A stretch of DNA of 35,561 nucleotides from Cystobacterineae bacterium (lineage in GTDB: Bacteria; Myxococcota; Myxococcia; Myxococcales; Myxococcaceae), in NCBI GenBank assembly GCA_009782175.1, contig WRKR01000031.1, positions 1-35,561 of the forward strand, read 5' to 3'. Numbering within the stretch: position 1 is the stretch's first letter; each line of letters opens with the position of its first letter. The position numbers and the translations under genes were made by a program. Shown here piece after piece: positions 8,373-10,438 of the stretch. Below the pieces are notes generated by a model. That model was not told where the DNA came from and did no database searches. It saw nothing but the letters and a program-made list of their open reading frames with translations.

Positions 8373-8885
8373 CTATCGACGGATATAGCGTTCGCTTAAA
8401 GCGCGGCAGAAGTTGCAGAAGGAGGCTTCTGTGCTGGCCTGGGGAAGGGTCCATGGGGGATACATGGCGCAGCGTGGATCCAAGCAATGGTGAAGTCCGA
8501 AGTTATGTCCCAGCTCGGCGATGGCGAGGCGAAAAATTTGTTTTTGAAGGCGTTCCAATTCTTCATGGGGAGGGAGGCTGAGGAGTGCGCGCATGCCTTT
8601 ATATTGGCTAAGCCCGGAGGTATGCAGCTCTCCGGTGAGGAGTTTGCGCGTTTGTAATTTGCGTTGAGTCAAATAGAGGGTGCGGTCGCTGGGCAATCCG
8701 TCGATTTTGGGGGCGGTGTTGAGCAGGAGGAGGCCATCGACGGGGCTGTTGGGCTCTCTATTTTCCAGGGGCCATGGGACGCATCCTGCTTGCTCGCAGC
8801 CCAGGCCGAAGGAGGTATACAAATGGCGTTGGAGTGCGCGGAGGAATTTGGGCTCATATTCTTCGAAGTGGGCAATGCGGATCAT
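8373..8885 (-). CDS. carG: CarG-like archaemetzincin-fold zinc protein, protease motif broken
   Basis: A 170-aa archaemetzincin-family protein. The family's active site begins HExxH, followed by a fixed pattern of cysteines. Here residues 123-134 read AELGHNFGLHHC, followed by C139, M141 and C157-NF-C160. All zinc cysteines and the second and third histidines are present, but the first His of HExxH is Ala (codon GCC), so normal peptidase activity is unlikely. Its ATG overlaps the stop of carD by 4 bp (ATGA). In Myxococcus xanthus, carD is followed by carG, which encodes a zinc-bound, archaemetzincin-like, non-proteolytic partner of CarD; family, order and coupling all agree. I infer that it is a CarD cofactor rather than a protease. 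The symbol rests on this context. Confidence 0.82.
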   Translation of the reverse strand: MIRIAHFEEYEPKFLRALQRHLYTSFGLGCEQAGCVPWPLENREPNSPVDGLLLLNTAPKIDGLPSDRTLYLTQRKLQTRKLLTGELHTSGLSQYKGMRALLSLPPHEELERLQKQIFRLAIAELGHNFGLHHCLDPRCAMYPPWTLPQASTEASFCNFCRALSERYIRR

Positions 8886-9793
8886 AAGGCCTTTTTCTTT
8901 ATAGAGGTGCGGGAGGCGGCTTTGTCTGTTTTAGGTGCGGCTTTGGTTTTGCTTGCTGAGGAGGGGGCTTCTTTTTTTGTTTTAGGTGCAGGCGTTTTTT
9001 TGGCTAAAGCCGCGGCATTTTTTTGAGGGGAGGTTTTGCTTGTTTTGGGAGGGTTGTTGGCTTTGGTTTTATTTTTTTTGGTTTCTTTTTGAGGAGCAGC
9101 GCGTTGTTTTAAAGCGTTTATTTCGTCTGCACTCAGGCTTTCTTCCAACTCTTCTTCTTCGGGTTGCTCTTCGGTTTCCTCTTCTGTTTTTTCGAGGAAT
9201 TCGTCTTCGTCCAGAGAGAGCAAGTCCTCATCCATGGGGGACTCGAAGGCGAGTTGAAACTCCTCAAGGGTACGGCGTGGGCGGGCTTTGCCGACGGGGA
9301 AGAGGACGAGGTCGATGGTATCTTCGGCCTCGCAGGGCTCCATTTGCAAGGAGGCGGCCATCTCTTCGACGAGCATGCTGCGGGCGTTGTTATAGAGCTC
9401 TCTCTCTTTGGTGGGCAGCGGTCGCAACTCGGAGAGCACCTGGAGTGCTTTGACGACTTCAGCCAAGCCCATGAGGCTTCCCCGCGCCATGTGCTCCGTA
9501 TTAATGCGCGCGCGCGTTTTCCAATCCAACGAGGCTTTGTCGCTGTCGGATTTGAGGAACTCCAGCACAGAGAGCACCTCCGCATGCGTAGCCACCTTGC
9601 GCAAGCCGATTTGGAGGGCCTTTTCTGTGGGCACCATAACTTTGGCGTCATTGTTGAGGCGGACGAGGTGGATGAAGAGCAACTTTTGGTTTGCAACTTC
9701 TTTCTCTTCAATGCCGGTGACATTGCAGAGGCCTTGGTTTGGATAAACAACCGTCTCTCCAATAGAAAAGGGGAGTGGAGTGGAGGGGGCCAT
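8882..9793 (-). CDS. carD: CarD-type transcription factor with acidic and basic C-terminal tails
   Basis: A 303-aa protein. Residues 1-165 form the CarD/CdnL domain (FSIGETVVYPNQGLCNVTGIEE start), which binds the RNA polymerase beta subunit. Residues 185-225 are strongly acidic. Residues 230-303 are Lys/Ala/Pro-rich and repetitive (KKTPAPKTKKEAP), like histone H1 tails. M. xanthus CarD has the same order: interaction domain, acidic stretch, then a DNA-binding HMGA-like tail. I see no AT-hook RGRP core here, so DNA binding would be through a histone H1-like tail. CdnL proteins, by contrast, stop after about 165 residues. The ATG at 9793 follows GAAAGG with 5-nt spacing. The gene is divergent from mraZ across 192 bp and coupled to carG. 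Confidence 0.9.
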   Translation of the reverse strand: MAPSTPLPFSIGETVVYPNQGLCNVTGIEEKEVANQKLLFIHLVRLNNDAKVMVPTEKALQIGLRKVATHAEVLSVLEFLKSDSDKASLDWKTRARINTEHMARGSLMGLAEVVKALQVLSELRPLPTKERELYNNARSMLVEEMAASLQMEPCEAEDTIDLVLFPVGKARPRRTLEEFQLAFESPMDEDLLSLDEDEFLEKTEEETEEQPEEEELEESLSADEINALKQRAAPQKETKKNKTKANNPPKTSKTSPQKNAAALAKKTPAPKTKKEAPSSASKTKAAPKTDKAASRTSIKKKAL

Positions 9794-9888
9794 GTTTGCC
9801 TTTCAAAAGGGGCTTTCGAAGATACCGACAGTATTTGGCACTTTATGAGAGGGGATATTGAAAAACCAGGAGGTTTTTTCCAAACAGC

Positions 9889-9923
9889 TGGATGAAAAGT
9901 GGAAAAAAGTGGAAAATAGTGGA
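9889..9923 (+). promoter_or_regulatory. MraZ operator repeats upstream of mraZ
   Basis: TGGA occurs at 9889, 9900, 9910 and 9920, the last three as GTGGA with exact 10-bp spacing and A-rich spacers. MraZ proteins bind three or four direct TGG-containing repeats at about 10-bp period upstream of their own gene, so this is a textbook autoregulatory operator. It lies 63-97 bp upstream of the mraZ GTG. The promoter must lie close by; a weak candidate is TTGGCA near 9834 with TATTGA 15 bp later. Because carD diverges from here, bound MraZ might also affect carD. Confidence 0.8.
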
Positions 9924-9985
9924 TAAAAAAACCAAAAGAGAAGCAAAAGAAGCAGAGGAAGAGAAAGAAGAAGGAAGGGCAGACC

Positions 9986-10438
9986 GTGTTTCGCGGCGTA
10001 TACGAGCACCAAATAGACTCCAAAGGTCGCACCAGCTTTCCCTCCAAAATGAGGGAAATTTTGCTGGCCTCCAGTGAGGACAAACTCATTGTGACGACGG
10101 CCTTGGATGCATGCCTACACGCCTATCCCCTCAAGGAGTGGGAGCAGTTGGAGCAGGCGCTTGGAAAGCGCAACCCCATGGAGTTGGGGGTGAAGACGCT
10201 GATGCGCCTTTATATAGCCAACGCGCAGGAATGCCCGCTGGACAGGTTGGGGCGCATATTGCTTCCACAGGCTTTGCGCAGCCATGCACGGCTGGAGAAG
10301 GAGGTGTTGTGGGTAGGCATGGTGAGGCTCATTGAGTTGTGGTGCAAAGAGGGTTGGCAGGAGGCGCAGAGAGAGGCGCGCGAGGCGGTGGAGTCCGCTT
10401 CTCTGTTGAATGTTTTGGCGGAGTTACGCCGCAGTTAA
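9986..10438 (+). CDS. mraZ: Transcriptional regulator MraZ
   Basis: A 150-aa AbrB-fold DNA-binding protein that heads and represses the dcw operon. It carries the two family signatures, DSKGRTSFP (residues 11-19) and DRLGRILLP (86-94), which form the DNA-binding loops in the ring-shaped oligomer. The start is a GTG with a GGAAGGGC ribosome site about 5 nt upstream. Four TGG direct repeats lie just upstream. The STAS gene starts 11 bp after the stop. Confidence 0.95.

Follow-up and report, generated by a model that had tools for sequence, protein, structure and literature searches.

A CarD-CarG pair in a small-genome member of the Myxococcaceae with a pseudo-active site unlike that of Myxococcus xanthus

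Introduction

The CarD-CarG pair of Myxococcus xanthus serves many ECF sigma factors (PMC8156234), and the part of CarD that binds CarG is the CarD_C domain (PMC4374960). One published account gives the CarG motif as HQx2Hx2Ex2HC and describes a protein without protease activity to which two zinc ions bind (PMC8156234), and another reports that a single Cys-to-Ser change at any of the four cysteines abolishes function (PMC3427221). CarG shares its fold, its Cys4 zinc segment and its Met-turn with the archaemetzincins AmzA (2x7m, 3zvs, 3lmc), which, in contrast to the protein described here, keep HEXXHXXGXXH intact and have no CarD partner. On the CarD side, the orthologues accepted as such include H1-like proteins, among them those of Anaeromyxobacter dehalogenans and Vulgatibacter incomptus, which have basic tails without AT-hooks (PMC9304148).

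The DNA analyzed here, referred to as the window, is a stretch of 35,561 nucleotides from a myxobacterial assembly (contig WRKR01000031.1). A first-pass annotation of its sequence had reported a carD-carG pair in which the CarG-like protein reads AELGH in place of HELGH. The present analysis places this pair in its family and in its host genome.

The carD-carG locus

The features of the locus are as follows.
8373..8885, minus strand: carG, archaemetzincin-like pseudo-protease of 170 aa (ORF; PF07998; AF2 model)
8882..9793, minus strand: carD, 303 aa, with an RNAP-binding domain, CarD_C and a disordered acidic/basic tail (ORF and Pfam)
8882..8885, minus strand: ATGA overlap of the carD stop and the carG start, 4 bp common to both ORFs
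9593..9769, minus strand: CarD RID (RNAP-interacting, Tudor-like) domain, residues 9-67 (PF02559)
9311..9568, minus strand: CarD_C domain, residues 76-161 (PF21095; alignment)
8885..9298, minus strand: CarD tail, an acidic segment followed by a K/A/P-rich basic segment, with no AT-hooks (no GRP)
8487..8519, minus strand: degenerate metzincin motif of CarG, A123-E124-L-G-H127-N-F-G130-L-H-H133, codons 123-133
8517-8519, minus strand: Ala123 codon GCC within that motif
8406..8486, minus strand: Cys4 structural-zinc segment, with C134, C139, Met-turn M141, C157 and C160
9986..10438, plus strand: mraZ, first gene of the divergent dcw cluster (ORF)

The window pair is orthologous to CarD-CarG of M. 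xanthus (43% / 59% identity, CarG being the 43%). CarD matches CarD_TRCF_RID with 44.6 bits and CarD_C with 70.5 bits (Pfam), and the Peptidase_M54 match of CarG reaches 28.9 bits against a Pfam gathering cut-off of 24.4. The presence of RID, CarD_C and an acidic/basic tail, together with separate CdnL-like and Mfd-like genes, identifies the upstream gene as carD, and carG lies directly downstream on the same strand, sharing the ATGA at 8882-8885 just as initially annotated. M. xanthus (L089) has the same gene order, a CarG of the same 170 aa, the same Cys4 and Met residues and likewise a pseudo-catalytic site; the window differs from it in having A-E for H-Q, G for E at position 130, and an overlap of 4 bp where M. 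xanthus has a gap of 58 bp. Thus, the description of the overlap as typical of myxobacteria holds for 45 of the 107 pairs but not for M. xanthus itself. The -4 overlap is found in 44/52 pairs without AT-hook tails, compared with 1/55 of those with them.

The pair was also said to lie beside the dcw cluster, which is true of the window genus; elsewhere mraZ lies 2-11 kb away, also head to head. carD and mraZ are divergently arranged at all loci in which both were identified (window 8882-10438, L095, L101, L104, L108, L118, L138, L143, L144, L181, L183-L187), and they are about 0.2 kb apart solely in the window genus. No mraZ was found within 18 kb of the Anaeromyxobacter-type locus L182.

The window CarD retains, by alignment, the essential M. 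xanthus basic stretch K93/R95/R97 as K92/R94/R96. The M. xanthus protein itself has four RGRP repeats, and since GRP is absent from the window tail, the window CarD falls outside the HMGA-type (AT-hook) subgroup and is of the H1-like kind. The earlier comparison of this tail with histone H1 is therefore apt as to the missing AT-hooks, although the variant was already known from A. dehalogenans and V. incomptus (PMC9304148). Unlike those H1-like CarDs, the window genus is nested, together with L017, among AT-hook Myxococcaceae in the joint tree described below, and its tail thus looks secondary rather than a retained ancestral state.

CarG of the window

The window CarG motif is AELGHNFGLHHC, i.e., A123-E124-L-G-H127-N-F-G130-L-H-H133-C134, with C139, M141, C157 and C160 retained. 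The AELGH reading is borne out by the ORF, in which the remaining zinc-motif residues, all four cysteines and the Met-turn methionine are present. The Cys4 segment fits the CarG pattern HC-x4-C-x-M-x15-16-C-x2-C. The three histidines plus glutamate of a competent archaemetzincin (HEXXHXXGXXH) are incomplete, the first histidine being alanine, and the motif is of the degenerate, non-catalytic type seen in CarG. In line with this, the window protein has probably lost proteolysis, and because one histidine is replaced by alanine it is predicted to bind one zinc ion rather than two.

An AlphaFold2 model of the protein (25-row alignment; pLDDT 93.3) shows an archaemetzincin fold, and archaemetzincins are its best matches among solved structures (2x7m, Z 18.4 with an rmsd of 2.9 over 164 residues; 3lmc, Z 17.5; 4axq, Z 17.4). 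Within the window genus, AELGH occurs in L003 and SELGH in L004, which come from separate assemblies, and CarG is under purifying selection (NG86: dN 0.08-0.14, dS 0.57-0.97, dN/dS about 0.1-0.25); together these observations show that Ala123 is not a sequencing error.

Variation across the CarG family

Homologues were present in 60/60 relatives examined. Named contigs place these relatives in the Myxococcales, the order being understood to include M. xanthus, which broadly agrees with the published view that CarD-CarG is confined to Cystobacterineae (PMC9304148). Among 110 distinct CarG sequences, 107 have CarD upstream on the same strand, and the other three lie at contig ends. Outside the order but within the same class, L146 (G163:C6:239000-247000) holds a CarD-CarG pair with a -4 overlap, whose CarG motif, QHMGFLWGLRRC, has lost all three histidines and retains Cys4 and Met. 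One Myxococcaceae genome (G159, 98% complete) yields a match at paralogue level only and is apparently without CarG, and at G091:C122:102093-102642 the CarG match is split between two reading frames, in pieces that overlap, possibly through a frameshift.

The first two positions of HExxH occur in 17 combinations across these 110 sequences: HQ 40, QE 16, HA 10, QQ 7, HY 7, HE 6, HF 6, HH 5, HV 3, AE 2, HD 2 and six single combinations. The initially stated change of the catalytic glutamate in M. xanthus CarG agrees with both the literature (PMC8156234) and the sequence of L089, HQLGHLWELHHC, which matches the published motif. The loss of a histidine ligand in the window (A-E) is thus a different defect from the HQLGH of M. 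xanthus, and HQ, present in just 40/110, is a lineage trait rather than a definition of the family. At position 127, 94 sequences have His, 11 (Corallococcus and close MAGs) have Thr and 5 have another residue, and position 133 is His in 106/110. All Corallococcus-type CarGs (L036, L098, L101, L102, L104, L105, L107, L109, L111, L113, L115) have Thr for the second zinc histidine (HQLGT); as the L101 protein shares 87% identity with M. xanthus CarG, HQLGT amounts to a cultivable natural mutant.

The Cys/Met set is complete in 88/110 sequences, and in 18 one of the last two cysteines is replaced by Asp. On the CarG tree, parsimony requires at least 9 changes at H123, 18 at E124, 5 at H127, 15 at G130, 3 at H132 and 2 at H133, compared with 0 at C134, 0 at C139, 1 at M141, 3 at C157 and 3 at C160. 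With a column median of 15, E124 behaves much like an average column, position 123 lies below the median, and changes at H127 and H133 are even fewer. Because the three histidines change more slowly than the median, the catalytic site is loosened but not wholly free. The first two cysteines are invariant across the tree. By these alignments, the Cys4 zinc site is conserved across the family, whereas zinc binding by three histidines is not; the initial statement that zinc binding was kept accordingly stands for Cys4 but not for the catalytic triad, which is broken in the window and in many relatives. An apparent association between His123 and an acidic residue at 130 (73/77 His rows versus 2/30 non-His) comes down to 5 independent pairs, is not significant and may reflect shared ancestry, and was discarded.

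A literature search, to which the original CarG and CarD papers were out of reach, found no description of this family-wide erosion. The pattern, in which catalytic residues erode by many routes while Cys4 stays, is a useful result, and its priority is uncertain.

NCBIfam NF033824, a family of non-proteolytic archaemetzincin-like proteins of myxobacteria, resembles CarG in its M54 fold and HQ-type pseudo-site, but it was rejected as the CarG family: it represents an unlinked paralogue (320 bits for L069, the Myxococcaceae type of this paralogue, against 24 for M. xanthus CarG and 27 for the window protein). This second M54 family (L062-L071) is unlinked to carD, is pseudo-catalytic, mostly with HQAGH (one DAVGQ), and is absent from the window genome.

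Trees and direction of change

In a CarG/M54 tree built without the motif columns, the window protein clusters with M. xanthus CarG, separate from the unlinked archaemetzincin paralogues and other M54 proteins. A joint tree of the CarD N-terminal domain and CarG, again excluding motif columns, unites the QE, AE and SE rows and L015 in one clade with 98/98 support. The QE members of this clade (e.g., L006 and L083, 'Archangium sp.' and 'Myxococcaceae' MAGs) share with the window the loss of the first histidine and the retention of Glu and Gly130; they differ in having Gln for Ala/Ser and, in most cases, AT-hook tails on CarD, mostly with two or three hooks. Since the window genus sits within the QE clade, its Ala/Ser most likely replaced Gln, and the histidine would have been lost before the genus arose. 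The idea that inactivation arose through different substitutions is thus right in that changes vary by lineage, but alanine is not a one-step alternative to the Glu-to-Gln change.

Two CarGs, L015 (HEVAHTYGLHHC) and L052 (HEVGHLLGLRHC), carry the full HExxHxxGxxH, which leaves the inactivity of the entire family unproven. The nesting of L015 (HE) within the QE/AE/SE clade implies a return to His, and a weakly supported placement puts L052 close to lineages without the second His. That a full protease motif was reassembled at least once in a drifting pseudo-enzyme is nonetheless judged distinctly unlikely.

Host genome and remaining regulators

The host genome (2.70 Mb, 99.95% complete, Myxococcaceae) encodes a single M54 protein and three CarD-type RID domains: one in a frame of 1206 codons consistent with Mfd, one in a frame of 190 codons consistent with CdnL, and that of CarD. 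GC content in the window is 55%, whereas Myxococcaceae relatives have about 69-71%. The genus contains two further genomes, both MAGs (WQYA01000008, Emb289P3bin65; WQTM01000153, Co191P4bin16) whose sample codes denote two termites, Embiratermes neotenicus and Cornitermes sp. (PMC7024585), and the genus thus suggests a termite-gut origin for the window genome as well.

Six sigma-70 region 2 matches were found, compared with 38-49 in full-size relatives. Two of the six are of ECF type by sequence: a zf-HC2 anti-sigma gene comes after one of them (L172) and an ORF without a Pfam match after the other (L173). CarF is absent from the host genome, and a search with PF00494 as a probe for loss of carotenoid synthesis left one divergent squalene/phytoene-synthase-like match (G000:C42:15814-16479). 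By analogy with M. xanthus, where CarD-CarG serves many ECF factors, the pair may act on these two.

Explanations considered

Very probably, the locus is a retained CarD-CarG regulator pair of reduced-genome gut Myxococcaceae, in which CarG is a non-protease scaffold held by Cys4 and its catalytic site is decaying. CarD would bind RNA polymerase through RID, CarG through CarD_C, and DNA through its basic tail, and the window CarG would accordingly be the partner of the window CarD. CarG itself would be a folded archaemetzincin scaffold held by the Cys4 zinc, with no protease role. If CarG serves only as a scaffold, its former catalytic site should be weakly constrained, leading to lineage-specific decay, plausibly from E to Q in Myxococcus, from H to Q and then A/S in the window clade, and, in other lineages, by loss of the second or third His. 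Most CarGs still retain H127 and H133, which speaks against wholly free decay.

A rival reading is that the QE/AE/SE site still binds metal, with Glu124 or the CarG-specific His132 as third ligand in place of the lost His, so that two zincs would be held in an altered geometry, perhaps for sensing. Glu124 and Gly130 are indeed retained throughout the QE/AE/SE clade, and H132, which is S/Y/L/A in the paralogues, hardly varies in CarG (3 changes). However, the metzincin glutamate is a general base, not a ligand (PMC3427221), and neither His123 nor Glu124 is present in QQ, QL and RQ CarGs, making such a site unlikely. An active archaemetzincin that adjoins carD by chance is barely credible: the fold (Z 18.4) and the retained catalytic Glu would suit it, but a zinc ligand is replaced by Ala/Ser and the tree groups the protein with CarG. 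The long stem branch of the window genus (1.24 changes per site in the CarG tree, 0.91 in the joint tree), the 2.7-Mb genome and the missing CarF could instead suggest that CarG is decaying along with a shrinking genome, the lost histidine being a step towards a pseudogene. This is very improbable and already largely refuted by overlapping ORFs that are intact in three assemblies, by the low dN/dS, and by the conservation of Cys4 and of the CarD basic stretch. The retained pair with a decaying pseudo-active site is thus the preferred reading.

Significance

The window pair is a known system whose pseudo-active site differs from the textbook one. Natural variation in CarG makes any role of the catalytic-type zinc testable, as lineages that have lost one, two or three histidines yield direct predictions on zinc content and function; examples are the cultivable Corallococcus HQLGT, Archangium QQ, the window AE and G163 with none. 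If L015 or L052 cleaves peptides, a transcription cofactor would have regained proteolysis, and the CarD partner could then be a protease-regulated factor in some species. At the window locus itself, an ordinary CarD-CarG pair is retained in an unusual host, and its survival in a genome that lacks CarF and has just two recognized ECF sigma factors is relevant to the purpose of CarD-CarG where light-induced carotenogenesis has presumably been lost.
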